From the NCBI GenBank assembly GCA_034231615.1, contig CM067322.1, positions 69,425,354-69,489,353 of the forward strand: 64,000 nucleotides of DNA, in the 5' to 3' direction. Below the pieces are notes generated by a model. That model was not told where the DNA came from and ran no database searches. It saw only the letters and a program-made list of their open reading frames with translations. The DNA is from Meghimatium bilineatum (Eukaryota; Mollusca; Gastropoda; Stylommatophora; Philomycidae). Shown here piece by piece: positions 2,634-59,585 of this stretch. Each line of letters opens with the position of its first letter. The stretch's first letter is position 1. The position numbers were made by a program, and so were the translations under genes.

Positions 2634-2836
2634 TGTTCAGTGAAAGACTTGCTAGGTATAAGTCCTGCCAAGGATTGATCTTCCTCCTCTCCTTCCCTAA
2701 AGGCTTGCCACCAGTTGGGATCATCAAGAGCTATAGCATGTAACAAGTCTCCTTTCATGAAGCTGATACCAAGCTCTCGACATGGGATGTATGGATCATC
2801 TTCGGGCTCGTATGAGAATAAAGCTCTTAAATGCAT
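2634..2836 (-). CDS. PALS1: PALS1 exon: SH3 domain
   Basis: 67 codons plus two bases encode a MAGUK p55-type SH3 domain. It starts [20 protein letters not shown] and contains [24 protein letters not shown] and [10 protein letters not shown]. In PALS1 the SH3 packs with the PDZ and GK domains to hold the Crumbs C-terminal tail. The acceptor is CTGTTTAG and the donor ACA|GTATGT, close to consensus. The exon begins in phase 0, matching the phase-0 end of the upstream PDZ-tail exon. It is nearly collinear with vertebrate PALS1, so the assignment is firm. Confidence 0.96.
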
Positions 2837-5184
2837 CTAAACAGAAGTTGATAATATATTAATCACAATGCATGATTAGCAACAGATTTTTACAAAAATA
2901 TGTATTGCAAAGTGTGTCTAAAGTAAACAATAATGCTAGCTATCATTTACACTGTTAATAAATTTGACACAATTTTGACAGAAAAATAAATAAGTAGACC
3001 CTAATATAAATAACTTGATATCTAAGCAGGCAATACTAGACAATTGATTACTTTTCTATTATTCTCATAAATAACAATTAAATAGTTACCGTTAAATTCC
3101 GTGTATAACCCGAGAATTTTTGGACAATAAACAGAGATGACTTCATACTCTTCGTCTTATAATTGAGTAACATCAAATTTAAAAAAAAAATTACGTCCAA
3201 ATCACAGTAAAAAAGGAGAAAAACACTTTAAAAAAAATGCCAGTGACAACTCACATGTCCCGATATATTAAGCCAGGATAAAATGACTAGGGCTCTCCAA
3301 CAATCTAGAGCGTACTACCATACTGCTAAGCCTCTAATTACATTAATTTCTATATATCATACAATATTTCCTTCGAAACCTCCGATATTTCTTGATAAAA
3401 CTCACTTACTAGGTCTATATCGTTATTTCCGACATGCCATGCCCGCCATTTTTACTGAGCTTAATTTCCCCGGAAATGCTATTTTTAGCAATGGGTATTA
3501 CCGTTTTTTATATATTGACCAAAATATGGTAATGGTCTGTGAAAAAACGAAATATGGTAGCCTAAGCTGATCTACCAGTAACACATGTTTATCATCAAGG
3601 CCCAGTCTTGTTTGTGTAGGGAAACACCGACTACCAGTAGTCTAAACACTGTCACACACTTTCATTTTGGGTAAAGCAAATGTTACAACAGTTACTGACC
3701 GTCTACTAGGCTATAAGACCTGTGTACAGAAAATGTAAAAACACATCAAAGGCAGATTTTGAGTATTTCCGTGCATGTGCTGGTCGGCCTTGCCAATTTT
3801 TAACATGCGACTCCAAGTATATAAATAGGGACCAAGACAATAATCAGAAACATAAAGAATGAAGTCCTAATTAATTCTGTACAGAGGTCTTTTTCTACAT
3901 TCAACGGTCTTGCACAAACACGGTCTTGCACAAACATGTAACTGACATCCAAAACTTTGCTACTTAGGCAGTGTTGGGGGGATGGCGGAGAGAAATAAAT
4001 AGTGAAACTCATCTGAGCTGTGCCTCATGTTTATATTACTGTATAAGGTAAACATACAGGTCACACAAAGTTCAAACTCGTTGTTAAGTTCAAACTGTTG
4101 ATTCTGTATCTTTTAAAAACAAAGCCGGGGAATGACTGTCTGCAATATTTTTGTGAGAACTCGGTGGCAAATACCGGTAGTTACATACTGGTACTCTGTA
4201 TATTCTGTTAATTAGTCCAGCCCACTGAGGCTGAAGATGGACTACTGGCCCTACCCATTTCAATCGGCTCAACCAATCCACGTTTCCCTCACATTATGTG
4301 ATGCCATTCAGATAAGTGACTAAAATGTAATCTTTCTTTATAGAAGATTTGAAACGGGTTCCAAATCACAACACATCATAGGCATTTTGTAGTAAAATTG
4401 CACCGTAATTGATTCCCTCCCCCAACCACTGTACATTTAGTGGAAGAAGAGATCAATTTCACAATCCTCTGTTATGTTTATTTTATTACCGTATTCTCCC
4501 CACATGGTAAACATAACCAGGAACAAAGTTCAAACTCTTCTGTATCTTATAAAAACAAACGTGATCTTGCTGTCTTGCCTTTCATCATTTCCCACTTAAA
4601 CGTCACTGTCAGAAGCCAGTGACATAATAGTTACGTAGTAATTACTATTCACTAGCGCTGTTCCGCGTCATAACGTCCAGACACCCAACACAGACAATTC
4701 ATTCAGGAAAAACTTTGTTCCCCAAAGTCTTGCCACCTCATAAACCGTCTATAGTCATGGATAGGGAAGTCAGCCTACCGGGTATTCATTATTTTCGGAT
4801 ATATTGATCCAGAATACAGTAGCCACCGGGGTTTCATTCCTTGATTCATTCAAGTTACGTGAGTGAAGCAAATGAAAGGAATGCTATTTTCTTAGAGTTG
4901 CAAAAGTTTGTGTTAATTTCCATTTAGCATGTCGGTTCTTTCTTATGATGATGAAGTTCATTATTGCCGGCTTTGTTAAGTTGGGGATGTCGGTCTATAG
5001 TCGGACTTTCGACTTTCTCCACTTTTGGGAAGGGATAGTTAGGTTATCGGCCTACAATCGGATGGGTTTATATTCAGAATTTAACGGTAAGTTTAGAACA
5101 TATGTATATATTTAAAGAAAATTATTTGTACCAATAGTATACTTTTCTGTGATAAAATAATAAAATAATGACTGATGACTTGTG
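2837..5184. other. PALS1 intron with a diverged direct repeat
   Basis: No exon or mobile-element protein is recognised. Two diverged copies of a ~95 bp segment (about 4027-4120 and 4466-4560) share AAGTTCAAACT, TTCTGTATCTT and GGTAAACATA in the same order. They could be a local duplication or two pieces of an unnamed repeat. Confidence 0.4.
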
Positions 5185-11884: not shown

Positions 11885-12050
11885 CTGGAAAGTAAAGTCC
11901 ATCACTTTTGGTTGTATCTATCATGCTGAAGTTGGATGTATCAGACAAAAATGTGCAGAATGTAGCTAGGCTGTAAACCATAGTAAAACACATTCCATTA
12001 TCCGACTTTGTCCTGCTAATCTGCAGTAGTGTAAGATTAAATACAGAAGA
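11885..12050 (+). repeat. GAA-tailed SINE-like repeat, diverged copy
   Basis: Shares with the other copies ATGCTGAAGTTGGATGTATC, then AACACATTCCATTATCCGAC, TCCTGCTAATCTGCAG and an ATACAGAAGAA end. It is diverged and lacks a clear TSD. Confidence 0.55.
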
Positions 12051-12129
12051 ACACTACAAATACATTGTAGTTATTCATTAACTGTCGCTAATTCTAAAAC
12101 ACTGCTGTTCCAAAGAAGTTAAAAGTAAG

Positions 12130-12883: not shown

Positions 12884-13259
12884 CTGGGAAAATAGAAACA
12901 TGCAGTTTTAACACAAGCAAATAAAGCAACTCCCTACTTCAGATAGTAAATTATAAGTCTTGTGATATGATACATAATTATGTATAAATATGATTATAAT
13001 CTAATAATGTAGTAGTCTCAGATTTATATGTGTAAACATGAGAAAAGATGCAGTAAGTGATTCCCAATTCTGGCTAAATTGACATGTCTCAGTCAAGGCA
13101 TTGACAATCAAGGATAAAAGAAGCCACAACAAATGGCAGCAGTGTAAATTATGTTTCCATATGGAACCACACATGAACTATTCCTTGCCACAGGAATACA
13201 ATAGCATAAATTTCAGGACATAGGATACTGCCATACAGCTTTTCAAATACTCAACAACC

Positions 13260-13860
13260 AAGAGTCCATACACCAAAAAATCTTTATCTTCAGTGATTCA
13301 GAACCAGTCTAAGAAGTCACCCAAAATACCAAAGAAGACAAACTAATTCAACATTAGTGAAAATATCTGCAAATTATCTAGTAAAACATTAGTACTACAG
13401 TTGATACCAGATCATTGTGGCATCCTTAGTAACAAAAAAGCAGACGAATTGGTAAAAACAGTAGACAACATCCCTTAGACCCGCATAACTCAAATCTTCA
13501 GGGAAGTAAAGTCTCTGCTAAAACAATCTATGCGACTTCAGTGGAAAGAACTAAATGGAAACAATAGCCGCAAGCAAGATAACATTTATAAATTGAAAAG
13601 AAATGAACAGGTTAAATATTTCAACTGAGAAAGGGACACTGCCGTCTAAAAGCACACTTACACCAAATTGGTATCATCAACATTGTGACCTGCAACTGTG
13701 GAGCATCAACACAGATACCAGAACACATACTACAGAATTGTCCCAGTTATACTGTTCACATAACAACAATCTGACCACAGGAGCTTCTCTGCAGGACAAG
13801 TTGTGGGGAACCAAGATGACCTAAATTCACTCTACACATGATCAATATTGACCATTTATG
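13260..13860 (+). mobile_element. RNase H-bearing LINE, C-terminal part
   Basis: In shifting frames this reads FIFSDSEPV (RNase H), IPDHCGILSNKKADELVKT (the HCGxxGNxxADELA block), then IFQLRKGHCRLKAHLHQIG, CNCGASTQIPEHILQNCP and the terminal ELL...SCGE region. These are the RNase H domain and the C-terminal zinc-knuckle-like block of an I/Jockey-like LINE. The RT part is absent. Confidence 0.7.
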
Positions 13861-15374: not shown

Positions 15375-16084
15375 AATAAACACAAAAAACTTTAAATACA
15401 TATGATAAATTTGTTCATCACCATTCTCTTGGAACCCTTAGTTTCCTTTTGTGGAACCCAGTTTGAGAAATGCTGTTCTACACTGTCAAAATTGTATTTT
15501 TTTCTCTCACAGTTCTGCCTCTTAAATTATCTATTACTGTTACTATTACTAATTGTCTAAAAGTTGGTAGCATATACTATTTGGGATAAAGAGATTAACC
15601 AAGAATTGTTGGGAAGTAGCAATTTCCTAGACAATATTTATATTTATTAGATTGCCATTGCTTACTCTTCCTCTTCTATTGCCAATGTTTAGTCATCATT
15701 TATTAATGACATTTTGGTAATTCATGAGCTTTACATCTCTAAAGATTTCATTTACCATTTCTTTATATCATATTATTCTATTTCTAGCACTTTATTTAGT
15801 GTAACTAGCTATTAACTGTTTTATTTGGTCTCATCCATTTACATAAGTGAATTGCGTTTGCCTGGTTAATAGTGAGCTTACTATCACCGGTTTACAGCGC
15901 GCTAGGTTTGAAACCAGATCTGGACAGAAAACAATAAACTGGGTTCATATTTGCTCAAATTACTAAACTATCTTCTTCTTTCTGTCCTCATGTACCTTTC
16001 GGTGTTGGGGGGTAGTGAGTATACGGTCTTTTGCCCTTCTATTTGCTTTCTATATACCAAACTATAGCCCTATATAAGTCAAGC
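15375..16084. other. PALS1 intron, nothing firm
   Basis: AT-rich sequence. About 15850-15930 contains GCGCGCTAGGTTTGAAACC, faintly like a pol III B box, but there is no matching A box or end, so no SINE is called. Confidence 0.3.
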
Positions 16085-17480
16085 AAGTAAAATAATGTTA
16101 AATATCATAATGCAAAAAGTCAAACTTAAATTAGAAATGGAGACAAATGAAACACAGGCCGGATTCAGATTATGCAGAGAAACAAGAGATCACATCCTTA
16201 ACATGAGGTTTATCATATAAAAGTGTAGGGAATTCTCAAATGACCTGCACATGTGCTTTATAGACTACTCAAAAGTGTTCGACTGCATCCAACACCAGAA
16301 ACTATGGGAGATAATGAACAGCTTGGGTTTTCCAGGACATCTGACTCATCTTATAGAAGAACTTTACCAAGATCAAAAGGCTTCAGTAATTTAGAGGGTG
16401 AACTATCAGAGTGGTTTGAGAAACAGAATGGAGAAAGGCACACTCTCCCCATACCTGTTCAACATCTATGCAGAAAATATGAGAAACTTGAGAGAAGACA
16501 TAAATAGCACAGATTACCACGTTTTAAACACCAGTGGTTTTGAAATCCCTGAACTACGTTATGCAGACGACACTGTGCTGCTTTCAAATTACATAAAGGG
16601 ACAGGAACATCTAATCAAGAACACAAAGATATACAGCGAATCACAAAACATATATTTAAACAAAAATCATGTCAACAGATATAACAACATAACAACAAAA
16701 AATTATAATAGATAATGCCGATATAGAGTGTGTGGATAAATTTGAATACTTAGAAGCAAACATCAACGGTGCAGGAGACTACATGGCAGAAATAAGCATT
16801 AGCATATTGTAAAATAACGCGATTTAAAAACATATGGAAAAACAACAAATAGAAATGAATCTTTTAATGCTAAGAAATTTATATTTCTGGTTGCAACACA
16901 TGGATGTTAAACACAGACCCTAAGTAAAACAGCAGTAAAGAAGATCAATGCCTTTGATATGCTACAGAAAGAAACTTAGAATCTCACGGAAGGAAAAAAG
17001 GAAAAACAGACACTATAAACACATTGAAGGTGGCAGAATGTTGGTTACTAAACACAATAGCAAAAAGAAAACTACACCTGTTGGTACATATTCTTCTTCT
17101 TCTTAAGCATTCATTCTCAAACTCCCACTGGATCTCTCTTGTAGCAGGACAATGGTCCAACTAGATTTCCAGCAGGATGTAGTACAGAAAATGGAAATGC
17201 ACTGTGTCGCCGTTTTATTTGTGCCAATGGCCAGACACATCAGTCTGCGGCGGTGTTGGAACATATAAAGAGACCGACTGTTTAGAAAGACATATTATGG
17301 AGGGCAGAGCATATGGGAAGAGTAGAAAGGGCAGACCAAGAAGATGGACTGACAGATATTAAAGATAACACGAATACGTCGTTAGAAAATGCAAGCCGCA
17401 TGGCCTAAAACAGATAGGTGTTCAGGGAGTTATTTGGGAAGATAACAATCTGGAGAGAATACGTCCCATGACACACAACC
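16085..17480 (+). mobile_element. RTE-like LINE with RT core, split by a SINE-like repeat
   Basis: Reads TNETQAGFRLCRETRDHILN (16147), HMCFIDYSKVFDCI, KGTLSPYLFNIYAENMRN (16434) and LRYADDTVLLSN (16553), the catalytic YADD of RT. The C-terminal block after 17270 reads WTD...DIKDNTNTSLENASRM and WREYV. A GAA-tailed repeat (17092-17254) sits between the RT and the C-terminal block. There are several stops. It is the same family as 59600-60560. Confidence 0.78.
17092..17254 (-). repeat. GAA-tailed SINE-like repeat, short form, with TSD
   Basis: A 163 bp copy in reverse orientation, so its tail appears as TCTTCTTCTTCTT at the left end. It is flanked by GTTGGTACATAT (17080-17091) and GTTGGAACATAT (17255-17266), matching at 11 of 12 bases. 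It interrupts the LINE at 16085-17480, which proves it is a separate mobile unit younger than that LINE. Confidence 0.85.
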
Positions 17481-18524: not shown

Positions 18525-19990
18525 TTACCTATATGCCTTAATGGTGTGTACAAGTTTCTGTACTTTGGCAAAACTCTGTCAAATACCACAACAATCAACA
18601 AGGATGTCGTCCCATGCATTATCTGCACTAGTGCAGTGTTTAGTGGTCTTTGTGCAATTATCTGGATCCAGCATAGATTGAGCATGGAAGCAAAACTCAA
18701 GGTATATAGTGTAGTCATTCTGCTTTCACTGCTATATGAAGCTTAATCCTGACAGTCTATAATAGGCATATAAAGCAGCTTAATTCTTCTCACCAGCCAC
18801 TGGTACAAGATGTTCGTCCATCACAAGTGATGATGACCATTTGTTACATCCACTATTGAAAATTCAATTTTAGTTATGTCCTTGATTATGAGTTCATAGA
18901 TGGCTAATGAGCCCTATTCGAGCTGTAAATGTCCTTGGACAGTTCGGACATGGAATGACGACTTTAGACGGATCTTGGTCTATCCGTGACTGTCTAGCTG
19001 CTCTCCGCTGTTGAGCTGCTGCATTTCTCTTCTTTTCACAAGATGATGCGCTCTTTTTTATTTTAGAACGCCATGTAGATCTATTTTGTGCAAGTTCTTC
19101 CCATGTATCGTGGCCTATTTCAAAGGCTTTCAGTGAGTTCTTTAACGAGTCCTTGTAGCGCTTCCTTTGGCCACCTTGAGATTGTATACCCTTCTCTAGC
19201 TCACCATAGAGAAGTATCTTTGGCAGACGATGGTCTGGCATATGCACCAAATGACCTGCCCAACGAATCTGTGCCTGCATCAGGATCGTGTCAATGCTTG
19301 GGATACTTTCTCTATCAAGGACAGTGGTATCTGGAATCTTGTCTTGCCATCTGATGTTCATAACTTTTATGAGACAATTTGTATGAAAATGATTGAGTTT
19401 TTTCAAATGACGTCTATACACAGTCCATGTTTCACTAGCGTATAACAGCACTGGAAGTACCACTGCGGTACAAGATAAAGCTTCTTGGTATGCAATGGCA
19501 AAATCACATTACTGACATGGAGATCTCCAAAAAGTCTCAGATTGAAAGCATCTACACCTTGTTGATCTGGTCTTAACTTTGTTGAGACCTTTCATGAGAC
19601 CTGTCACCTCATCCATATGCCAGATGAATGTCTTCCAAAAAGACTTCTATGGTGAACTGCGTTTAGGTAAACGTTAAAGTGGAGACCAGAAATAATGTTT
19701 CAATGGCTATGTGAAGACCACTCAAGCACAGGAGGATTGTCCCAAGCTCTTGGTAAATCACAGTTCTTTACCACCCAACTTGGAATCGTCAGATCAGTGC
19801 AGGTATTAAAAGTTTTAAACAGAGTAGAACACTGCAGGTGATTTGAAATATACAAAAACAAAATGAGATATCAGATTGTTCTTCTCATCTCATGAGATAC
19901 TATATTCCTGCTCACACTGCAACAGGTTTTTCAGAGCCTCGATTGGACTCATCAGCCATGTGAGTTATCACAAAAAAATCATACCAAACT
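18525..19990 (+). mobile_element. LINE C-terminal part, split in two by another LINE
   Basis: The left half (18525-18811) reads FLYFGKTLSNTTTINKDVV, MEAKLKVYSVVILLSLLYEA and TVYNRHIKQLN. The right half (19467-19990) reads IKLLGMQWQNHITDMEISKK, HMPDECLPKRLL and, at the end, CSHCNRFFRASIGLISHV. These are successive parts of one LINE polymerase tail with a zinc-finger-like end. The copy at 18812-19466 lies between them in the other orientation, bounded by GGTACAAGAT on both sides. Confidence 0.78.
18812..19466 (-). mobile_element. 5'-truncated LINE inserted in another LINE, with TSD
   Basis: A minus-strand frame of 189 codons is uninterrupted: VLLYASETWTVYRRHLKKLN, IRWQDKIPDTTVLDRES, QIRWAGHLVHMPDHRLPK, LLYGELEKGIQSQGGQRKR, ending CPNCPRTFTARIGLISHL. 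It is the last third of a LINE polymerase. The 10-bp TSD GGTACAAGAT lies at 18802-18811 and 19467-19476. The intact frame suggests it is fairly young. Relatives are at 15050-15370 and 31985-32960. Confidence 0.88.
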
Positions 19991-20549
19991 TGACCTTCTT
20001 TCAATGCCATGCTCATCTGTTCTTACATAGGAGGAACATTATCATCAATAGTTTAAAAAGAAGCAAAATTCTGGTCAAGTCAATAGCAACACCTCACCAT
20101 AAAAAGCAAATTTTTACATAACCAAATTCTGGTCAATTCAATAGTAACATCAGCAAAAAGTAAAGCAATTATGACCATTGTCAACGTTAGGATAGATGAT
20201 CTAAGGGATAGATGATCGCATAATGTGAGAGAGAACTGATAAAACAGGTTGCAATGCACATGCCAGCCTACTAGCAATATGTTATGCATATCCATCTCAG
20301 TGGAATTGGTAAAAACACTGAATGTATAATACCACTGCTGAAATTGGATGTATTTGAACATTGCAGATAATAAAACAGTGACACAACACTTATCCATTCT
20401 CTAGTCTACATTCTACTGAAAATATAGTAGGAATTTTGTTTTGCTGTTTACTGAAATAACCTCATTGCGTATTAATAATTCATGAGATGTGATGGGTAAA
20501 CACACTCTATATACTGCCCATCAGATACTCAGTCCTAGTAACAACAGGG

Positions 20550-21090: not shown

Positions 21091-21664
21091 GATACTATGC
21101 TCGATTTCAAATATCTCAATTCACAATATAAATATTATCAATATTTGCTGTATCCTAATTCAAACTAGTAGTTCTAAACAAATACAATATATCCATCTTT
21201 CTAAGACAGTAATTTTTATTCAGGAGATAGAATTACAGATATAGAGATGTTTTAAGTGAACAAAAGAAGAAGAATATATCTTTCTCGTCTAAACTAGTGG
21301 CCCTAAATAAACGCAATATTTCTATGCTCCTCATCTAGTGAACCCAATCAAGTGGTTTCCAAAACTGACAGTCACTTTGGATATACATTTTGCAAGGGCC
21401 TTATTCTCTCTCTATCTCCCCCCCCCCTCCCTGGGAATGCGCTAAATTTCTTAATCACTTTGTGCCAGATAACTTCACACCCTTCCTAGGGGGAAGGGCA
21501 ACAATGTTTGGGAACCACTGTCCTAAATAAGTGCAGTATTTAGGGGTTCATCTTTCTATCTCCAATGCCCAGAATATGGGTGCTCTTGGTGTAAAAACTT
21601 TGTATTATCTATCCATACATATCACTTATAACTAGATTCCCAGTCTTGCTGCAAATGAACTTAC
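21091..21664. other. PALS1 intron, nothing firm
   Basis: Partly repeats the terminal motif of the preceding LINE (AAGTGAACAAAAGAAGAAG near 21255). No exon was found. Confidence 0.35.
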
Positions 21665-21905
21665 CCACATTCTTTTTCAGATATAGTTCCTCTATCATAT
21701 CATCCGATAAAGAATGAGACTTGCTCCCAATATCATCAATGTCATCTTCTTCATCATCACCTTCATTATCAAATGCTGTGTTTACAAAACCTGATGGAAG
21801 GATGGATTTACTGTTTTCCAGTGCTTGCAACTTCTTGGACCCCCTCAATGAAGCTCTCAAGAACTCTTGTTCTGCATGTAATCTGTTCTCTTCTTCTCTT
21901 CGTTT
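21665..21905 (-). CDS. PALS1: PALS1 exon: coiled basic segment and acidic linker before L27N
   Basis: 80 codons plus one base. It starts KRREEENRLHAEQEFLRASL and RGSKKLQALE, then SGFVNTAFDNEGDDEEDDID, and ends SLSDDMIEELYLKKNV-G. Vertebrate PALS1 has RRRREEEGKKQELDLNSSM and IDNPMFDTEE in these places, and fly Stardust is closer to the FLRASLRGS part. The first block is probably helical; the aspartate/glutamate run is a linker. The acceptor is ATGTTTCAG and the donor GTGG|GTAAGT. Confidence 0.93.
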
Positions 21906-21974
21906 CTGAAACATTGAATAAACATGTTTTTCTACAACTGATTGGCCGAGATGTTAAGTCTAACAATTTTTTGT

Positions 21975-22125
21975 GGCTTTTGTCTTTGCTCATTTTCAAA
22001 CTCCTATTGAGACTCTCTTATAGCAGGACAATGGTCTTACTAGATTCCAGCAGGATGTAGTCCATAGAATGGAAATGTATTGTGTCACCATTTTATTTAT
22101 GCAGTATCAGATCCAACTTCAGTGT
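21975..22125 (-). repeat. GAA-tailed SINE-like repeat, short form
   Basis: Reverse copy with CTCTTATAGCAGGACAATGG, CAGCAGGATGTAGTCCA and GGAAATGTATTGTGTCACC, followed by ATCCAACTTCAGTGTTGG. The tail is decayed and no clear TSD is seen. It starts about 70 bp upstream (in gene direction) of the PALS1 linker exon. Confidence 0.7.
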
Positions 22126-23143: not shown

Positions 23144-23276
23144 GTGGTCTTGAGGACATAAACAATATAACATTAGGATCTCAATATTGCTATGATCCTT
23201 TCCAAATAAGACCACATTGAAGCAAATACTTATTTAAAAAACAAACAAATTTAATCTTCGAAAATAAACTGCCTAC

Positions 23277-23731
23277 CTTTAATTCCTCCTCATGCCGGTG
23301 CAGTCTTTCAAGTTCTTGAGGAGTTGGCGACTTGTGCTGTTGTTGTTTTGGTGTGCTGTCAGGTATGATAACCAAAGTCTGAATCTTTCCCTGTTTTTGC
23401 TCTTTATTATTGATCTTAGATGGAGACATGACAACACGGGGTATTTCACTCATTTGTAGAGGAGGAGGATAGCGAGGAGGAGATTTGACACTCGCAATAA
23501 AGTTGTCAGGAACATCTATTGCCATTTCACGATGTGGACCTTGATCATCTATTTCATAGTCGAATGAGTCATTCATACTCAAGTCATAATTGAGGTGGCC
23601 ACCATTTCTGTAACCACCATGATGGTTGCCAAAAGTATTGTTTTTGTTGTTCATGGTTCCAGATCCGTTGACAAGAAAATCATCAATTAATGGAGATGAT
23701 GGGTCACTGCTGCTTCCTTTGTTAAACTTGC
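23277..23731 (-). CDS. PALS1: PALS1 exon: N-terminal ECR / PAR6-binding region
   Basis: Two bases plus 151 codons. It includes SSSDPSSPLIDDFLVNGSG, an asparagine-rich stretch, then GPHREMAIDVPDNF and VKSPPRYPPPL, and ends TPQELERLHRHEEELK. HREMA(V/I)D is the evolutionarily conserved region 1 of PALS1/Stardust, known to bind the PDZ domain of PAR6. The acceptor is TCTGACAG and the donor AAG|GTAGGC. A methionine at 23654 could start a short isoform, but the frame is open through it and spliced from the exon at 27124, so it is not required. Confidence 0.92.
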
Positions 23732-24059
23732 CTGTCAGAAAAAATATAGTTTCTAATTCACAAAGACAAAGAAATAAACAAGAATAAATGTTAACATGTC
23801 TTCAATAATATTTATACAGTTAATCTGCATAAGATAAAGTTCTAAGATGGCGATGTAAACAGAGTGATAAATTCAGAGGATGCATAAATTGTAATTTTGT
23901 GATCATTCAAGTGTATTCAAGGATGAAACTACAACAGGTTCAGCAAATCGGCAGGGAATTTGAGTGTTCCCAGAAATCTGCTCTAGATATTATGGAAGAA
24001 CTCAAGAAAATTAGAAAGAATGTACACCAATTTTGAAACACATATCTATCCATATGAAA

Positions 24060-24480: not shown

Positions 24481-24724
24481 ATCCTGCAATTCCTCAAAAG
24501 CAGAGAAAAGACAATAGATAGAATCTGCATAAATGTGGTAAAATCTCATAATTTCTCTCAGCAATAGATTTTTAACTGTTACATCCACTCAGATATTATC
24601 AACTCAATGTCGATCAATTGGTTTGATTATTAAATATAACTGATCGCATTTCAACTAGTCCATAAACAGACAGCTGCACCCAGAGGTAAAAAAAAAGGCT
24701 ATGGAGTGAATCAGTTAATGGCCA

Positions 24725-25010
24725 TGTTCTGCCGGACCTGAAAAGGAAGCAAAGAATAGCGACACTGTTTTCCTTCCATGCATGTCAAAAGAGATAACTA
24801 AGGGAGGTTATGGGATGAAGTGTCCCATCCCATATAGACTGAATCTATCTATCTAAGTGACCCAGAAGCCATGCTAAGATTGGGTGTGCCAGGCTGAAAG
24901 GTGCAATTATCACAGCAAAGCTGCACACCATGATAACACATATTCCGTTCTCTGGGCGAACATTTGCTAATCTGCAGGAGTTTGAGAATGAACACAGAAG
25001 GAGAAGAATC
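24725..25010 (+). repeat. GAA-tailed SINE-like repeat, long form
   Basis: Full-looking long copy. It starts near CTGCCGGACCTGAAAAGGAA, then GCAAAGAATAGCGACACTG, then GAAGTGTCCCATCCCATAT, AGTGACCCAGAAGCCATGCT, TATTCCGTTCTCTGGGCGAA and GCAGGAGTTTGAGAATGAAC, with the tail ACAGAAGGAGAAGAA. The first ~120 bp are missing from the short form. No firm TSD was found. Confidence 0.75.
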
Positions 25011-27264: not shown

Positions 27265-27664
27265 CTGATTCTGATTTATATTTAAATAAAACAGAATTAA
27301 GTTCCAACAGCATTTATAATCTGAAAGTTAATTTATAAGAACTACAAATATAATATCACATTTCAGCATTATATAATGCCATTTTTTTTATAAAATCCCA
27401 TATATCATCTTTTTATCATTTTAATCTCTCATCAAAGTTCAGACACAATGTCTTTCATAAACATACTCATGTACACACGACCGCACACACACACACAAAG
27501 TTTTGTCACATATGTCTTTCAAAAACACAAACTTCAGATTTCTGGATAATACTGTTCAAAGATCAAAATAGAACCCAAAACATTACATCTTATGTTACCA
27601 TATTGACACTTTATCAATGGTTACTAATGTTCACTTAAAATGTTCATCAGTTTGTTCCAAGGGT

Positions 27665-28014
27665 TCCAAAGAGTAGCCAAGAATAGTAACACTGTGACCT
27701 GCCATGTATGTCATAAGAAGCAACCAGAAGTTTGAACAAATTAGTAGGGAATAACTCCACAGTAAGGAAAATATTAATATATTATTGTGGACATTAAAGA
27801 ATGTCATAAATAAACAGTAGTTTATTTAACAGAAAAGATCCTGCTTAGATCAGAATGCACTCAATAGTGGAATAATGGAGTTGGCTATCACAGTGATCCA
27901 AAAACCATGCGGATGCCAGATGTGCCAGTCAAGCTGTCAATAGCACATTGCATTCCCTCTCTCGGGACTACATCGTACTAATCAGCAGGAGTTTGTGAGT
28001 TGAACGAAGAAGTG
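27665..28014 (+). repeat. GAA-tailed SINE-like repeat, long form, left arm of an inverted pair
   Basis: Begins AGCCAAGAATAGTAACACTG and ACCTGCCATGTATGTCATAA. Unrelated sequence of about 130 bp interrupts it before CATGCGGATGCCAGATGTGC, CTCTCTCGGGACTACATCGT and CAGCAGGAGTTTGTGAG, with tail GAACGAAGAAG. It faces the next copy tail to tail, with 27 bp between them. Confidence 0.65.
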
Positions 28015-28041
28015 GAAAGCAATTGTGTATTCATCTTTTTC

Positions 28042-28318
28042 TGCATTCATTCTCAAACTCCTGCAGATTTGCTGGATTTCTAAGCCCGGAGAATGAAATG
28101 TGCTGTATTATGGTGCAGAGTCTGACAGATATCTGCGCCTTTCAGCCTGATATAGCTCACTTTACCATGTCCTCTGGGTCCCTGTGACCCTAATTATGGG
28201 ATGGGACACCCAAATTAATTCCAAAAACCTCCTCAGCCACTTCCTATAACATGTGCAGTAGGTAAAAGTGTTGCTATTCTTTGCTCCTCCTTTGGGCTCC
28301 GGCAATACTCTGGAAAAT
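28042..28318 (-). repeat. GAA-tailed SINE-like repeat, long form, right arm of an inverted pair
   Basis: Reverse copy: TTCATTCTCAAACTCCTGCA, CCCTGTGACCCTAATTATGG, GATGGGACACCCAAATTAAT and TGCTATTCTTTGCTCCTCCT, ending GGCTCCGGCAATAC. This is the best-preserved 5' end of the long form. Confidence 0.72.
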
Positions 28319-28329
28319 TTAATAATAGA

Positions 28330-29300
28330 GAATGAAATTCAACAATACACTGGGGTGCAAAGGGAACGCATTGCTCTAGGCGGACCCAGGGTAAGCAGGT
28401 AACCAAGATTCCAAATGTACCTCCACGAGGTGCACCCTGGAAACAGAAACACAGCAGCTCGAGCTGATTCTGGCCAAATCATTTGGGGATCATGTCCGAG
28501 AATGTGGAGGAAGCAGATGGAAAGAGATTTGACTGCACAAGAGACAGACAATATCTCTGACACCATCAGCATCACCACATATAACGACACTGTCGACATA
28601 CAGTGAAGCTAGTCAGCTCAGTCCGAACATTGGAGGGGCAGCCAATGTAAAATGCACGTAAAGGTAGATGCATGGCGAGAGACAAATAGATTTCATACCG
28701 AGTACAATGAAACAATGAAAGGGCAGAACAGCGCTAGAGGGCAGCGCGAACTGCAAATAGAAAGTGAAAAGTTCTAGGAAAGGGGATCTACAAGCTCCGT
28801 CAGCTCGAGACAAGCTTCTAGTTACCTGTGTCCCTTACAGGCAGAGACCCAGACCCATTCACTGGCGTTTGGTAAAGCAAGAAGACCTAACCCAACTCTA
28901 ATGTCGAGCCTTCCTAAACCGGAAATATGCTCGCAAAGAGAAAGGGTTCTGTACCCGAGATGGGCTTAGGCACAAAAGGGACAACGATTTAGCCCTGGCC
29001 CAACTCTACTGTCAGGTATTTCCTACACCGGAAATACACTTGAAGAGAGAAAGGGTTCAGTACCTGATGGGCTCAGGCGTTATTGGGACAAGGACGCTCA
29101 GCTCGAGAACGCCTTGCTCTCAAACGCGTGGTGTGAGACTCGAACTTGGACAAGTAAAAATATATATATGCTCTGTGAATTCTTAGCAGGATGTGATGAT
29201 CAGGGGATACTGTCTCACTGGAATGCCACTCTTTTTTATTAGAAAATGACTTCACAGCACGTAGGGTATTCCTATAAGTGCTCCGCCCTACGTTCCAGCA
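28330..29300. other. GC-richer segment with a 105-bp tandem duplication, origin unknown
   Basis: Visibly richer in G+C than its surroundings. Two diverged tandem units (about 28885-28990 and 28994-29100, spacing 109 bp) share CCCAACTCTA, TTCCTA(A/C)ACCGGAAATA, AGAGAAAGGGTTC and GATGGGCT. A plus-strand frame of 63 codons at 28415 matches nothing I know. It may be part of an unrecognised mobile element. Confidence 0.5.
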
Positions 29301-30803: not shown

Positions 30804-30861
30804 CTGTAATCAAAAATAATGTTGAACATTAATATTAGCGAGATGACTAATTTTTAAATAT

Positions 30862-31022
30862 CATCTTCTTCTTCAGTGTTCATTCTCAAACTCCCACTGT
30901 GTCTCTCGTGTAGCAGGACAACGTTCCCACAAAATTTCCAGCATGATACAGTCCAGATAATGGAAATGCGTTGTGTTACCGTTTTATTTGCGACAATGAT
31001 CCGACACATCCATCTTCGGCAA
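30862..31022 (-). repeat. GAA-tailed SINE-like repeat, short form, with TSD
   Basis: A 161 bp reverse copy: CTTCTTCTTCAGTGTTCATT, GTAGCAGGACAACGTTCCC, GGAAATGCGTTGTGTTACCG, ending GACACATCCATCTTCGGC. It is flanked by ATTTTTAAATAT (30850-30861) and ATTTTAAAATAT (31023-31034), matching at 11 of 12 bases. It lies 58 bp from the upstream edge of the first recognised PALS1 exon. Confidence 0.85.
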
Positions 31023-32960: not shown

Positions 32961-33038
32961 ATTCTCTACCAACAATTAAAGACGTCAATTGTATTTTCTA
33001 GCTATTTGTTCATTATTCATACTCCTGAATCATACACT

Positions 33039-33195
33039 TCCACCAAAGACGGATGTGTCGGGCCACTGGCGCAAATATAACGGCGGCACAACACATTTCC
33101 ATTCTCTGGACTACATCCTACTGGAAATCTAATACGATCATTGTCCTGCTACAAGAGTTTCAGAGGGAGTTTGAGAATGAACGCTGAAGAAGAAC
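33039..33195 (+). repeat. GAA-tailed SINE-like repeat, short form, with TSD (type copy)
   Basis: A 157 bp copy in forward orientation. It starts TCCACCAAAGACGGATGTGT, continues GGCGGCACAACACATTTCCA, CTGGACTACATCCTACTGGA, GTCCTGCTACAAGAG and GGGAGTTTGAGAATGAACGC, and ends TGAAGAAGAAC. The TSD CATACACT is exact at 33031-33038 and 33196-33203. This is the clearest copy for defining both ends. Confidence 0.87.
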
Positions 33196-33203
33196 CATAC
33201 ACT

Positions 33204-38470: not shown

Positions 38471-39919
38471 CATACAAATAAAATGAGGAGCTACGTTTCA
38501 GCCAACCTTCGATACGGAGACTTGGTGAGCATATAAGCAGATCAGAAAGACAAAGATGAAAACAAACATATTATCAACATCATTATCATCAGGTGGAATT
38601 ATCTCCACATGATATAGCAGCCATCCTAGTCTATCAAAACTGTCAGATCGTGCTGATCATAAACTAATCTTCCAGCTTCTATAAGCGTTATGTTCAGGTG
38701 GAATTGATAATAAACAGTTACGATTAACATACATGACCAAAAATATATAAACAGCCTTGAAAGACAAAGTAGACAATGGAGAGGATAATGTAGAAACATA
38801 CAATTGAAAACTGAACAATTAAAAAAACCCACAGAATGTAAACAACAATAGAATCAGTGACAAAATATTGTGGGACGTTAAGAGGTTGATAACAAAGAAA
38901 AATAGGGAATACAATTATGAGAGAATGTCCTCAATGAAATGAATGTGCAGATTTATGCTTTTGTTTTAATTGCGAAGGAGAAATTATTCATGAAAAATCA
39001 ATACTTTCATGAGACTAGGTACTCCTAATTTCCCCCTATCGTATCATGTCTCGCAAGGGACAAACAGATATCAATTATACATTCTATGGAGAAACATTAT
39101 GCATTCGATGGAGAGACTCAATCGACCTTCACTGATGTATTAAATGTGAAATACTTTATGCATTAGCCACATTGTAAATGAGTATACAAGAACTGTTGAA
39201 TGTACATTTGGTGACGGCACAAACTGGACGTGTGTAGTGTGGTATACAATGAATGGAACTATTCAAAACAGAGCTATAAGAAAATAGTTAGCACATCCTA
39301 AGATGAAAAATAACTGCATAAAATACACATGTTGACCAATTCTATGATCTTTTTTCTGCGTTTACTCTCCAACTCCTGCTGATTAGAAGAACGAAGTAAT
39401 GAGAACATTTATCGAACTTTACAGTTAGGCTGTGATATCTAAGACTTTTGATCTAACTTCAGTATGTCATTTTAGTAATGCTTTCTCATATTTAGCCATG
39501 CCCGCGAACGTGCAGTACCACCTTTTCTCATCGTTTGTTATGTTGTGAATGTACTCCTGATAAAGACATTTTGGTCAAAACATCGATTCTCATGTGTTAT
39601 CACGCGTGTATCACATGATTAGCAAAACTTCATCACCATGTTTCCTAGTTTCATTCTGATAATGAAGTAGGTCAATTCTTATGATTGGCTGCTGGACGCA
39701 GAACTCATAAATCGAACCTTAAGTGCGCAATAATATAGTTCAATAGAGCATAACAGTGTTATTAATTTAAATCAACTGTTGCTAAATGAAGTATGTCTAT
39801 CATAATAGTAATGTATGTTTTAAAATACATTTTCATATAATATATCTTCATCATTCCATGATGCATTACTATACCCGCTGTTATAACGTTGTGCAGGCAC
39901 AAAGAGGTCAGGGGGAAAC
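38471..39919. other. No gene recognised
   Basis: AT-rich sequence. 39355-39395 (TTACTCTCCAACTCCTGCTG) may be a scrap of the GAA-tailed repeat. 39550-39600 carries CTCCTGATAAAGACATTTTG, a motif common in decayed animal retroelements, but not enough for a call. Confidence 0.3.
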
Positions 39920-41384: not shown

Positions 41385-41655
41385 AATATACAGTTACAGA
41401 AAATTAGCATGTTTTGGACATGTATGCAGACATGATTCCTTGTCAACAACAATACTGCAGGGAACCTGTTGAAGGAGAAGAAGCAAAGGACGGCAAATAA
41501 AGACATGGACAGACAACATCAAGGAATTGTTAAGATTTTCCCTCACTCCTCCACATCATTGACGATAAAAATCGGTGGAGGATTCTGTCTGCTGAAGCAT
41601 TCAATATGGTACTCCTACGACCCTGATGGGTTTGATCATTCATTCATACAGTTAC
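41385..41655 (+). mobile_element. LINE C-terminal fragment, second of three in a row
   Basis: Reads KLACFGHVCRHDSLSTTILQ, GTC..RRSKGRQIKTWTDNI, KELLRFSL, ending PTTLMGLIIHS. This is the C-terminal block KLxWFGHVxRHDSLSKTILQGT of the family at 7390-8995 and 53050-54730. Confidence 0.65.
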
Positions 41656-42045
41656 AGCAAGTTCAATAGTGACAACAGAAATGACATGTCTACGAAGAAT
41701 ACTCGGAGTGTCATTAAGAGATAGAATTAGAAACGATAACATCAGACAGATAACCAAAACAATACCAGTATTGGAACACATCAAAAGACAGCAGATCAAG
41801 TGGTTTTCAAACGCTTCCATACTACCGACATATAGCATGCCACAGATGGCCATGACACATAGATATAACGGTTATAAAGCCAGAGGCAGACCATGTAAAA
41901 GATGGATCACAGAAATCAAAGAAGCCACAGGAACAAGCTTACATACAGCGCACAAGAAGGCCATCTCCAGAGAACTCTTCCACCCCTGACGCTACAAGGC
42001 AAACAAGGGACACAGCGTATAGATAGATAGATAGACAGCAAGTTC
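41656..42045 (+). mobile_element. RTE-like LINE 3' end with (TAGA)n tail
   Basis: A frame of 106 codons from 41669 is open: MTTEMTCLRRILGVSLRDRI, RNDNIRQITKTIPVLEHIKR, QQIKWFSNAS, RYNGYKARGRPCKRWITEIK, then stop. It ends CAGCGTATAGATAGATAGAT, the same end as the copy at 51505-52570 (CAGCGAATAGATAGATAGAT), so this is the true 3' terminus. Confidence 0.8.
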
Positions 42046-42460
42046 CTCTAAATATATAAACCTGCCAACTGCCTAAAACATGGTTCTCTACTCTCGTTCG
42101 CGCCCACATAAAAGTGAAATTAACATTGGTGACCCCATTCCCCCCCCCCCCAAAGGACCAACACAATTTTCAACGTTGTTCGAGTATATTAAATTTCCTT
42201 GTATTATGCCCAAATAATTTTAGATAGTTATCGTTCTGTGTAGTTATATTTCTGTGCCCACCTCAGACAAATCGGCGTAATCCTCAGTTGCCAATCTATT
42301 TCCTCTTGCCCCCACATCTCCAGCAAAACCGTGGCACGCTGTGAACCATATGACCCACGTTGAGAACTTGATCTAAAAGAGTAGGCACTGTATACTTGCC
42401 TAATATGACATCAGAGTGGATAATAAAATAGGTATGTCCACACAATAAAACGAGGAGCAG

Positions 42461-42704
42461 CCGCGGCTTGAAAAGGGAGCAAAGAATATCAACACTGTTT
42501 ACCGTCCATGTATATTGTAAGAGACGACTATAGAAATTATATAGGGTTACAGTGACCCAGAAGCCATGCTGAAGTCGGATGCGTCAGGTCGAGAGGCGCA
42601 TATATCGCAGCAAAGTTTTAGACTATGACACAACGCATTCCATTCTCCGGACTTCATCCTGCTAATCTGTATGAGTATGAAAACGAACGCGGAAAAACCA
42701 GAAG
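42461..42704 (+). repeat. GAA-tailed SINE-like repeat, long form
   Basis: Shares GAGCAAAGAATATCAACACT, CAGTGACCCAGAAGCCATGC, AACGCATTCCATTCTCCGGA and TTCATCCTGCTAATCTG with the copy at 24725-25010. The tail is decayed (GCGGAAAAACCAGAAG). Confidence 0.72.
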
Positions 42705-43504
42705 TAATTATAGCATGTTCTATCATTAAACATCAACCTAACATTTAGTGACATACTCATGAAGACCCCCCCCCCCCGCCCCCATCTCTATCTGCCGCTT
42801 GATGTTCAAAAGAAATAATAAAATGTCACAAAATTCATACAATAAATAATATTAGAACGTGAGCAGACACACACACAACGCTTTACGACATAAAACAAAG
42901 AGAAATAACTAACAAAACAACTAAATATTTCCATCAAATGGACGGTCAAGAGTGAACACAAATAAAGTGATATTAAAGTTGTAGAAATTAGTAAACAATT
43001 ATTAAACATTGATGGTCGCGAGGTTTGGGTTCTAGTATACAGCCTCCAAGTCTGTTGCAGTCAGTCTTCGTTGCGGAGACGGTACTCCGTGATGATGATA
43101 CAACCCAAAAGATCCCGGAGTTACATCAACATTGAGACGATTCAAGACAATAATCAACCAAAGTGATACATGACCGTAAGTGCCTAGTTCCATCTTAGAT
43201 GGAGGACAAACTCTGATGCTCCTTGCACAAGTTGCAAACTTTAAATGACTGTTCAGTTTATAATTTATAATCCAATAAGTACAGGTAGGAAGGCAGCTAA
43301 ACTGTAAAAATGTGAATAGACAAATAAATAAATTCCAGCAAATAAAGGAAAAAAAAGGGGATACAACGAAGACCCTCGCCGCTGCTACAATGTTTGTGCA
43401 ACATTGCAGAGATCTTCCTGTGTACTGAAATCGATCGCAACACAAATTGCTGTCCGAAGTGCAAAAATGGGGATATTAACAAATAACTGCGTCCGTTTTA
43501 AAAT
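42705..43504. other. No gene recognised
   Basis: Contains a poly-C run near 42768 but no gene or element that I can support. Confidence 0.3.
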
Positions 43505-43748
43505 GCTTGAAGAATAGTAGGATGTAGTCCGGAGAACGATATGCATTGTGTCGTGGTTTAAGGCTTGGCTACAATATCTACCCCTTTTGACTAGATGCAT
43601 CCAATTTCAGTATAAATTCTGGGTCACTTTGACCGTATGCGGGATGAAACATCTAAATTCACCCTAAAACCTCCTTAAACGCCTTTACGACATTCATGGC
43701 AGGTCTTAGTATTGCTATTCCTTGCTCCTCTTTCTGGCACCGGCAACA
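43505..43748 (-). repeat. GAA-tailed SINE-like repeat, long form, tail missing
   Basis: Reverse copy: GGATGTAGTCCGGAGAACGA, ATGCATTGTGTCGTGGTTTA, GATGCATCCAATTTCAGTAT, GGGTCACTTTGACC, GCTATTCCTTGCTCCTCTTT and CTGGCACCGGCAAC. It preserves the 5' end but the GAA tail is not visible. Confidence 0.7.
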
Positions 43749-46639: not shown

Positions 46640-49600
46640 ATTCTGATGTATAATGTCTTCTTCTCGTTTGCATTTTAATGTCTACACAGCAAATCCGAGT
46701 TTCTTGATAAATGCTGCTGTATTTGAAAACTCCTCAAGGCCCTCATACAGCTTTCTATGTATATCTATCTCTGTGGGTCAGTGCTCCTCCTGTAGCTGGT
46801 TAGTGAAATGCAATCTTGCAGCATATGTTCTGTGCTGCCTGCCCACAGGGACACAGTCGTGATGGAATCAGTCTTGATCTACTTAAGCGCTGTTTAGTCC
46901 GTTGTGTCCTGTCTGATGTTTACTACGAGGCGTGTTCAAATGAAAACGGGACTTGTTACACCACGCGTGATAGAGCGCACTGATATTGATGACATTTTGC
47001 ACTAGTAATGAGTATCCAATAATTTACATACGGTCACGTGTTCATCTTCCCAGCATGCATATGTGCTGCAGAAGACTGTTAACAATATGGCGGGTGTGAT
47101 TCCGAACCCGTCCAAAGTGAATCAGCGTGCTGTGATCCAGTTTCTTTCATTTGAAGGATGTCAAGCAGTAGACATTCATCGGAGAATGAAGGCAGCATTT
47201 GGTGACATGTTTGTCGAGGACCAGAGTGATGGAGTGGGTGCGTATGTTTAAAGACGGACGTGAGTTAACGGCAGATCTTGCACGGCCAGGTCAGGCGCAT
47301 ATTGTTGCAACAGAAGAAGACACTTTAGACAAGCTGCATAAGGCCATCAAGGCTAAGCGACCAGGCAGACTTTCTCAAGGTGTGATTCTTCTCCACGACA
47401 ACGCTCGTCCGCACGTCGCAAAAGATGTGCAGGAAACATTGGCAAAGAAGAATTGGGAAGTTCTTCATCACCCAGCCTATAGTCCCGATTTATCCCCGTG
47501 TGATTTCCATTTGTTCGGACCGTTGAAGAAAGCACTAAAGGGACAGCGATTCAACAGCGACGCAGACGTGAAGACAGCGGTGACCACATGGTTCAGAGAA
47601 CAGCCACGCAACTTTTTCTCGGACGGCATTCGACGTCTACCTAAACAGTGGGATGCTTGCCTAAATGCATACGGAGATTTTTTCTGATGAACCCAGGTGC
47701 ATTCTTATTCACAAGTGGTTGCTTTGTTCAATTCCGTTGAAAATATTAAATTGCGTATGATACTTTTTAAATAAATCCACAAGTCCCGTTTTCATTTGAA
47801 CACGCCTCGTATAATAACTTGCTCTGCTCTGTGGAGATAGTGATAGTTGTCTTTTGGGTGGCAACTGTCCAATACATTTGATGAGCGTCATATTTTCATG
47901 GTAGGTGATTTCTTGGTCTATTTGTTCCTGTGTTGCTCCATCTTTTGTCAGCATATGTCTTTTAATTTCCTGGTATGCCACAATGAGATGGTATTCACTG
48001 CAGTACTACTGTTCTTTCGATGCTCACTTCTCGTATGACTTCCTTCAGGTCTGACAGTTTATCGCTGTCATGGGTTTGTAAGACAGACTTTGCATTAGTA
48101 AGAAACATCACTTGTTGACATAGGTTTATTGTGTTTTTAATTATTTCTGCAGCAACGCTTAGGGCCTGTACATTCGAGGAACAGTTGGAGCAGAAGATTC
48201 CAGTTGGTGAACATGTGGATTTATTTTCTTTTTCTGGATATTCTATGTACACTCCAATACCTCAATTTTTCACTGTTTTGGTTATTAATACATCAGTATA
48301 TACTTGTATCCACGCTTCTCTGAGGTACATATCATCAATCATGTTGCATACTATTGCTTTTTTGGAGAGCATTCAGCTCTCTTTCTCTCTCTCTCTCTAT
48401 CTCTTATAGTGTAGTTGTTCATATGGTGGTTGTGATAGTGAGATTTTGATATTGTACCAAGAGAATTGGAAATCTTTTGGTATTATTTCTTTTGTTATGC
48501 CTGGTAGTTCATCCTTGTATTCTCTGTTTGGTTTTTGGTTTGATAAATAAAACTGCTTCTCTTCAGCATTCAACTGGCTAGGTCACAGATCTGGTCTTAA
48601 TCGGGTGTGCTGGCATACTCTTGTACTTTTCGTTCATGCTGTTGGTACATATTCTAGTCTAATTGCACTTGTATATACTTTGTTTAAAGTTGCCTCATTG
48701 CCCACCCCCCAAGCGTGTTCCTGTCAATTTCCCCAGGACAGCAAGTTTTTGTATTGCCTTTACCTCTATTGTCTCAATGTGAGCATCCATGGCACCCAGG
48801 TACATCGGTTCCTATTCGGTTTGGATACATGTATTTCCAAGGTTAATCCCTCTTGATTTATCCTTATTTGAGCGCGAAGTGTTGTTGTGGATTTTTCAGC
48901 ATTATTTTTCTGCCCATACTGCTATATTGTCTGCTGCCTTTTGTATTTTATTGTTGGTGATCTGTAGATATCTTTCTAAACACACCACCATGTCATCAGC
49001 ATACATGGCAGCAATTACATCTTGTGGTAATTTGAAGATTAGATAATTTATGAACACAATAAACAGATTTGGAGACAGTACTGTACCTTGAGAAACTCCA
49101 TGATTTAGTAAATGTTTTTTTCTGTTGTGATCTTCCATAATGAGTCTTGCTGTTCGAATGTGTAGGAAGGATCGCATCCACTTAATCATGATTCCATATC
49201 TTTGCATCTTTACTATCAGTCCATCTTACCAGACCTTATCAAATGCTTTTGAGATCTATCCATAGGATGAACAAATATTTCTTTTCCTGAAACGCATCTT
49301 CACTGATCTGTGACATCAATGCAATTTGGTCTTCTGTACTGTTGCACTCTCTAAATCCAACTTGCTCTGGCACCAATAGCTTCTCTGATTCTGGGTACCA
49401 TTTCAAAATTCTGTTGACCATTATCCACTGTCTTGCAGACACAACTATTTAGGCTTATTGGTCTGTAGATGTAATGTTTCTGTTTATCCATGCTTTACTT
49501 TATGATAGGACATAATAGTGCTTCTTTCCATGCTTGTGAATTCAATGCCTTTCCATGCCTGTGGAACATTTCCTCTACCACAACTGTAGTTGTACATCTG

Positions 49601-59420: not shown

Positions 59421-59435
59421 TATATCTCATTCTTT

Positions 59436-59585
59436 AGGGTCAAATTGACCCAAAAGAAAAATAGTTGGATGTGTCGAGTCAATGTGGCAAACATCACATC
59501 ACAGCCAAGCTATGACACAACGCCCTCCATTTTCTGAACTACATCCTGCAAACCAGCAGGAATTTGAGAACGAAAGAAGAAGTTT
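59436..59585 (+). repeat. GAA-tailed SINE-like repeat
   Basis: Contains GGTCAAATTGACCCA, AGTTGGATGTGTCGAGTCAA, CTATGACACAACGCCCTCCA, ACTACATCCTGCAAACCAGC, AGGAATTTGAGAACG and an AAAGAAGAAG tail. It faces the 3' end of the LINE at 59600-60560 tail to tail. Confidence 0.72.

Follow-up and report, generated by a model that had tools for sequence, protein, structure and literature searches.

Two abundant GAA-tailed, SINE-like repeat families of Meghimatium bilineatum share a 3' module and resemble a candidate partner LINE at their last letters

What normally identifies a SINE is its small-RNA head, which carries a pol III promoter. In a 64,000-nucleotide stretch of the Meghimatium bilineatum genome (hereafter the window; C25:69425354-69489353 of a 1.61-Gb, 32-contig genome), a short repeat with a GAA tail recurs, and the first-pass annotation of this stretch described it as one SINE-like repeat, spread by a LINE, in which no convincing A and B boxes could be seen. 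What kind of element is this repeat, and which LINE may have moved it?

The window was searched with consensus sequences of the repeat. All 11 start sites that had been listed carry a copy, so the repeat is present wherever it was claimed; the description as one repeat has to be modified, since the copies at these sites belong to two families that are related to each other, here called the short form (SF) and the long form (LF) (Table 1). The list was also incomplete, as the old SF piece beginning at 20337 (+) and the old LF piece beginning at 39351 (-) were missing from it. The target site duplications (TSDs) ascribed to the three short copies are real, and only their lengths changed: for the copies at 33039, 17092 and 30862 they are 12, 13 and 15 bp by the present scoring, versus 8, 12 and 12 bp before. 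The TSD of the copy at 33039 reads GAATCATACACT (33027-33038) and GAACCATACACT (33192-33203), 12 bp with one mismatch, and its 3' member overlaps the final GAA of the element. Three other stretches of the window (2468-2836, 21609-21953 and 23190-23801, minus strand) look like exon pieces of a PALS1/MPP5-type gene. An SH3 domain was confirmed in the first of them only, and the second had no match among PDB sequences. If these pieces are such exons, several of the repeats in the window are intronic. A transposase fragment, mariner-like by look, lies at 47190-47687 (+; Pfam DDE_3, E 1.5e-8).

Table 1. Copies of SF, LF, LX and the candidate LINE type (positions refer to the window unless a locus is named)
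Feature	Position	Strand	Remarks
SF copy named in the first-pass annotation	33039-33194	+	95% identity to SF consensus
SF copy	17091-17253	-	88% identity; TSD 13 bp, one mismatch
SF copy	30861-31020	-	84% identity; TSD 15 bp, two mismatches
SF copy, partial (SF 35-142)	21990-22098	-	85% identity
Old SF piece (SF 4-112)	20337-20445	+	72% identity
LF copy, almost full length	24722-25008	+	77% identity; no TSD over cut-off
LF copy, almost full length	28030-28313	-	76% identity; no TSD over cut-off
LF copy (LF 13-281)	42460-42704	+	77% identity
LF copy (LF 9-269)	43487-43748	-	76% identity
LF copy, 5'-truncated (LF 122-272)	59435-59582	+	73% identity
LF copy, 5'-truncated (LF 142-274)	11922-12051	+	77% identity
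Two old LF pieces	27650-27724 (LF 6-81), 27917-28017 (LF 176-277)	+	
Old LF piece (LF 160-274)	39351-39457	-	67% identity
LX copy	L044:5426-6757	-	Inserted in an LF copy, LF 38-53 on both sides
LX 5' part, without 3' end	28352-29153	+	
Old LINE fragment, relative of candidate partner	13224-13813	+	

The SF consensus, built from 20 copies that were fetched with their flanks, is 157 bp long including the first GAA units and begins with TCCGCCGAAG. The LF consensus extends for about 266 bp ahead of the GAA tail and begins with CGCCCGTGTG; it was written from young copies in the sampled sequence and agrees with the per-position majority of the seven copies with at least 90% identity. Short hairpins are present in the 5' head of LF. 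Judged from their alignment, SF is not independent of LF: from position 4 onward it aligns with the 3' half of LF (position 145 to the end), the two differing by a deletion of 15 nt and an insertion of 32 nt in SF and by some smaller gaps. The folding model suggests that the 32-nt insertion lengthens the same 3' stem-loop. The 3' module that the two families thus have in common is some 140 nt long and is composed of a core (GCYGAAG..CGGATGTGTC..GGCGCA), a long stem-loop, GAACGC and (AGAAG)n. The tail of the module reads GAACGCTGAAG in SF, as against (AGAAG)n in LF. One pair in the outer 3' stem looks compensatory, G-C in young LF and A-T in SF (matches shorter than 100 bp were excluded from this comparison), and is not taken as proof, because CpG decay gives both changes as well.

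Pieces of the two families also occur in other surroundings. In an old family whose length is 360 bp or more, seen at L042:2157-2224, L045:2868-2941 and L034:6583-6690 (all minus strand), the likeness to LF is confined to a portion of the head (about LF 28-132), and the body is a different one; LF heads seem exchangeable. A further repeat with a GAA tail, about 110 bp long, occurs at L047:2108-2285 (-) and in the window at about 15965-16090 (-). Its two copies are 82% alike; it escapes searches with SF and LF, and in L047 it follows a piece resembling the LF head. At L037:1009-4339 there is a tandem array of about 73 copies of a 45-bp unit that resembles SF 85-118, with an LF copy nearby (4588-4863); this array is perhaps a satellite grown from a piece of the SINE.

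Abundance was estimated from a random sample of the same genome, which comprised 200 kb in 20 pieces of 10 kb each, placed at round coordinates. The copy counts disregard matches shorter than 60 bp and the SF matches inside the L037 satellite, and loci L001-L008, which are flanks of scored SF copies, were excluded from the random-sample counts. On this basis the sample holds 53 pieces of LF and 17 of SF, each 60 bp or longer, and LF and SF cover about 5.1% and 1.3% of it, respectively. Extrapolation gives about 427,000 LF pieces (bootstrap 266,000-613,000) and about 137,000 SF pieces (64,000-226,000) per genome. Genome searches returned 5732 first-look candidates for SF, 40 of which were scored and showed 91-100% identity over 149-157 of the 157 bases; for LF there were 6145 first-look candidates and the 40 scored showed 95-100% identity. 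LF is often incomplete, with 20 of 55 matches in the sample near full length versus 11 of 18 for SF. The repeat is therefore a genuine and very abundant short mobile element of an animal genome, and both forms are short, non-coding, dispersed and present in high copy number, as classical SINEs are.

How these copies arose can be read from their ends. The SF 5' end is constant to a few bases in the 20 fetched copies, which were taken from 39 other scored matches, and the flanks of these copies differ between loci with the exception of L013 and L014. These two, about 84 kb apart on C18, have identical flanks and the same TSD and represent a duplicated stretch, not two insertions; they count twice in the TSD set described below and once among the distinct TSDs. 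The set consists of 55 near-full-length copies, of which 35 came from the window and the sample and 20 had been fetched for a high SF score, which makes it non-random. A TSD score of at least 8 was found in 30 of the 55 copies versus 1.3% when flanks were swapped between loci, and a score of at least 10 in 19 of 55 versus 0.2%; the other 25 copies scored below 8 and have no TSD by this cut-off. TSD-positive copies amounted to 24/34 for SF, 5/6 for LF with at least 90% identity and 1/15 for older LF. The 26 distinct TSDs with a score of at least 9 range from 9 to 15 bp in length, with a median of 11; eight of them start with GAA, a triplet that makes up 2.3% of flank triplets. TSDs and a 3' simple-repeat tail, which are classical SINE traits, are hence present in both forms. 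Consensus building and TSD counting had been proposed in the first-pass annotation as checks, and the fixed SF 5' end, the (GAA)n tails and the excess of TSDs over the swapped control support its view of a SINE-like, GAA-tailed element spread by LINE-driven retroposition.

A short, non-coding and abundant repeat could also be a DNA transposon or a MITE. However, no terminal inverted repeats were seen by eye in the consensus, the (GAA)n tail stands on one side only, many LF copies are 5'-truncated, and the TSDs vary from 9 to 15 bp where a MITE should have a fixed length. We rejected the MITE on this last ground and regard an origin of this kind as extremely improbable; the variable TSD length equally argues against the repeat being just the end of a DNA transposon.

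The next question is whether SF and LF have the head by which a SINE is usually known. No match to tRNA, 5S or 7SL RNA was detected in Rfam 15 for the whole window at E up to 5, nor, with the limit raised to 10, for a single copy each of LF and SF, and ARAGORN with the bacterial code found no tRNA in the window. In a home-made consensus scan, the A/B box pair score of LF was reached by 117 of 200 shuffled sequences and that of SF by 169 of 200, whereas none of 200 attained the pair score of a tRNA control. The comparison with small RNAs that had been suggested for the 5' part therefore came out negative within these searches, a tRNA, 5S or 7SL head was rejected on these grounds, and the remark that convincing A and B boxes cannot be seen holds for both forms. 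The SF promoter, as far as its sequence can tell, does not look like the type 2 pol III kind. SF lacks the first ~140 nt of LF and is nevertheless abundant, which implies that the LF head is not needed for spread. Since SF has copies by the ten thousand without that head, transcription should start in the shared module or from outside the element.

Another explanation is that these are classical tRNA-derived SINEs whose head has decayed past recognition or whose A/B pair is degenerate. The LF 5' head with its short hairpins, partly common to another old family, would suit such an origin, but the negative Rfam and ARAGORN searches and the shuffle-level box scores speak against it, and SF is entirely without the LF head. 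We therefore consider a tRNA origin clearly improbable. As to known relatives, six strings of 13 to 21 nt from the repeat had no occurrence in the literature searched, and pattern scans of viral and genome contigs and a phage search gave no match, as expected for an animal repeat. We would file SF and LF as a variant of the SINE kind, outside any named family; their likeness to known families, discussed below, is by description.

To find the LINE behind them, the SINE tail was sought outside SINE copies in the sample, and this led to L032, where a LINE terminates in GAACGCAGAAGAAGAAG. A genome search with the last 299 bp of this LINE gave 2143 candidates; the 40 that were scored had at least 97% identity, most of them to the last base. 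From 39 others, 15 3' ends were fetched, and all 15 have a hairpin, AGCATG-ACCA-CATGCT (one base changed in one of them), followed by GAA(C/T)GCAGAAGAAGAAG. The motif is GAACGC in 13 of the 15 and GAATGC in two, and it is followed by GAA repeats, (AGAAG)n, beyond which the sequence differs between loci. In the four sampled copies of the LINE, GAAYGC is present in L032 and L046 and absent in L042 and L045. The putative TSD of the L032 copy is an 11-bp string that occurs three times in the locus and is thus weak proof.

Probes of 150 bp were taken 1.5 and 3.5 kb upstream of 10 fetched LINE copies. Those at -1.5 kb revealed reverse transcriptase (RT) sequence in three mutually matching copies, and those at -3.5 kb, inspected by eye, the endonuclease start in L088 and the 5' UTR in L082. 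The longest copy, L089 on C8, is about 4.35 kb and has GAACAGTACACA on both sides, a 12-bp TSD that begins with GAA. L090, on C1, is truncated inside the 5' UTR, and the copy on C2 has no clear TSD (8 bp, one mismatch). The first bases of the LINE are CCTGGGG..CTACCGACC. When the genome was searched with the first ~520 bp of the C8 copy, all 39 other scored copies started at query positions 47-59, the 5' end of the L089 copy itself being position 49, and six fetched 5' flanks were all unlike each other by eye. The genome thus contains a young 4.35-kb LINE with matches to endonuclease and RT (Pfam Exo_endo_phos, E 1.3e-5; RVT_1, E 0.0046, the latter under the curated cut-off). From its C-terminal motif, and not from a tree, we take it to stand near the I/ingi group.

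The window itself holds an old relative of this LINE, with an RNase H match at 13224-13475 (+; E 0.0013, under the Pfam cut-off, one stop read as X) and a 61% DNA match to the 3' region of the candidate at 13540-13813 (+). Two other LINE types in the window were dropped as partners, one at 41636-42035 because it ends in ATAG repeats and one at 18894-19508 because no GAA tail was seen in the stretch that was read. A further LINE end at 46655-46886 (-), with a CPCG..HMLQDC-type C-terminal motif (weak, E 0.34), finishes with TGCAAACGAGAAGAAGA and is perhaps a second GAA-tailed LINE family.

The SINE and LINE ends were then compared. LF and the LINE share GAACGCAGAAGAAGAAG at the 3' end, exactly in 13 of the 15 fetched LINE ends and with T for C in the other two. 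The shared letters comprise the last ~17 nt, of which ~6 nt (GAACGC) lie beyond the microsatellite. Both kinds of end consist of a stem-loop, GAACGC and GAA repeats, and the stem-loop sequences differ. For the wider LINE 3' region, the score against LF was reached by 108 of 200 shuffles and that against SF by 97 of 200. The comparison with LINE 3' ends that had been recommended thus succeeded for the last ~17 nt and failed for the region around them. In addition, the one clean LINE TSD, that of L089, fits the SINE TSDs both in its length and in starting with GAA, as theirs tend to do.

Could the repeat be nothing more than a longer LINE's 3' end? For the candidate partner, the one LINE that this comparison covers, the answer is no: only the last ~17 nt are common, SF has a fixed start with the TSD adjoining it, and the wider 3' match is within the range of shuffles. 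SF as a simple 3' fragment of this LINE was rejected accordingly.

A second resemblance concerns the other end of the LINE. The ~45-nt core (LF 133-181, SF 4-39) aligns with the LINE 5' UTR at L089:1622-1669, with scores of 21.3 for LF and 18.3 for SF that none of 200 shuffles reached in either case. Among 664 stretches of the genome in which SINE matches had been masked (332, each on both strands), however, eight reached this score for LF and eight for SF. The four best LF control stretches, the only ones inspected, seem to be SINE remnants that the masking had missed, or else other sequences that bear the core. The genome-stretch control gives no backing to the link with the LINE 5' UTR. Part of the module may be present there. 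Other parts showed no such likeness, since 99 of 200 shuffles were as good as the LF head (LF 1-132) against the LINE 5' region, and 58 and 35 of 200 were as good as the remainder of LF and SF, respectively.

The core is also found in a third family, LX, to which one of the control stretches just mentioned belongs. This 1.33-kb family has internal repeats about 107 bp apart and a longest stop-free stretch of 167 codons; besides the copies in Table 1, LX matches of at least 200 bp occur in L005, L029, L033, L034, L042, L043 and L045. The LX copies in L044 and L033 carry the SINE-module core and the GAACGC end. The LX core aligns with LF 138-177 and SF 4-55, and 0 of 300 shuffles did as well for either; multiple alignment extends the likeness to the GAACGC end, an extension without a control of its own. 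The tail of LX in L044 consists of AAAC repeats, while an LX-like element in L043 ends with GAACGCAGAAG (GAACGC) and AGAAG repeats. As aligned here, a core-stem-GAACGC module is the end of three families, SF, LF and LX. We read this module as what the LINE machinery would recognise.

Taken together, SF and LF are probably SINE-like non-autonomous non-LTR retroposons that share a ~140-nt 3' module and are moved by this LINE type or a close relative of it. The 3' end of the LINE, a hairpin and then GAACGCAGAAG(AAG)n, resembles the SINE 3' end, so the RT of the candidate LINE or of a close relative may recognise the 3' end of the SINE RNA. The LINE endonuclease would nick the target at sites able to pair with the GAA tail, and the new SINE copy would then be made by target-primed reverse transcription. 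Against this partnership, the AAAC tail of LX indicates that the GAACGC end is not tied to GAA repeats. Because another LINE type in the window is GAA-tailed as well, a different LINE may be the partner.

It is also conceivable that SF came from the 3' UTR of another LINE that bore the whole module, and that a read-through or truncated transcript founded the short family. In LF, SF and LX the core begins some 125-160 nt before the 3' end (counting the tail), as it would in a LINE 3' UTR; the start of SF coincides almost exactly with that of the module; and the stop-free stretch of LX could be the remains of a coding element. On the other hand, no element with both LINE domains and the module was found in 264 kb, where tails and the candidate LINE were what was searched for, and the fixed 5' ends of SF and LF and their very high copy numbers are unexpected for truncated LINE ends. 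We judge this origin rather unlikely.

Retroposition by the candidate LINE type or its close relative, which we prefer, leaves room for a stronger version, in which the module is a self-sufficient retroposon. SF would be the module alone, LF and LX would be the module with different 5' loads, the LINE 5' UTR would carry its first half, and both the RT signal and a transcription start without pol III boxes would reside in the module. We propose this tentatively, as possible rather than probable.

To our knowledge, the nearest known mechanism is that of the trypanosome ingi/RIME pair. In the trypanosome pairs ingi/RIME and L1Tc/NARTc, non-autonomous elements are described as being moved by an ingi-type LINE (PMC8190864). 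By analogy, SF and LF would likewise be short non-coding elements mobilised in trans by a LINE, and the last letters, perhaps together with a stretch of the 5' region, are common to them and the LINE. The trypanosome elements share the 77-nt Pr77 at the extreme 5' end, which is reported to act as promoter and HDV-like ribozyme (PMC8190864). In contrast, the starts of SF and LF differ from the CCTGGGG.. start of the LINE, so that no shared 5' end is seen, and the SF/LF core lies ~375 nt inside the LINE 5' UTR. An Rfam search with E up to 10, which can miss HDV-like ribozymes, yielded none.

Among molluscs, Lgi-Nin-DC-SINE1 of Lottia is described as having a conserved internal domain and pol III boxes A and B (PMC11121367). 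SF and LF resemble it, by description, as SINEs with a conserved internal domain and differ from it in that boxes A and B were not detected. Curated bivalve SINEs were required to have a tRNA-related head, with TSDs and microsatellite 3' ends among the features sought (PMC10294476). SF and LF have such TSDs and 3' ends; unlike in those SINEs, no tRNA head was detected in SF, and families of this sort would be excluded by that rule. In octopus, tRNA-Core and tRNA-Deu are reported to be the dominant SINEs (PMC8967140), and in Octopus vulgaris SINEs are given as 11.6% of the genome, with 893 recently active SINE families without class (PMC13282606). We liken SF and LF to these 'Unclassified SINE' families by description, no sequences having been compared.

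In conclusion, large headless families such as those found here may end up as 'unclassified'; the 893 octopus families may be compared (PMC13282606), although the part of that source consulted does not state whether they are headless. With the candidate LINE, both of its ends and the shared module described, it becomes possible to test what initiates transcription of these elements and which part of the 3' end the LINE RT reads. If the module is self-sufficient, it would be an animal counterpart of the ingi/RIME pair and would be among the commonest sequences of a 1.6-Gb genome.
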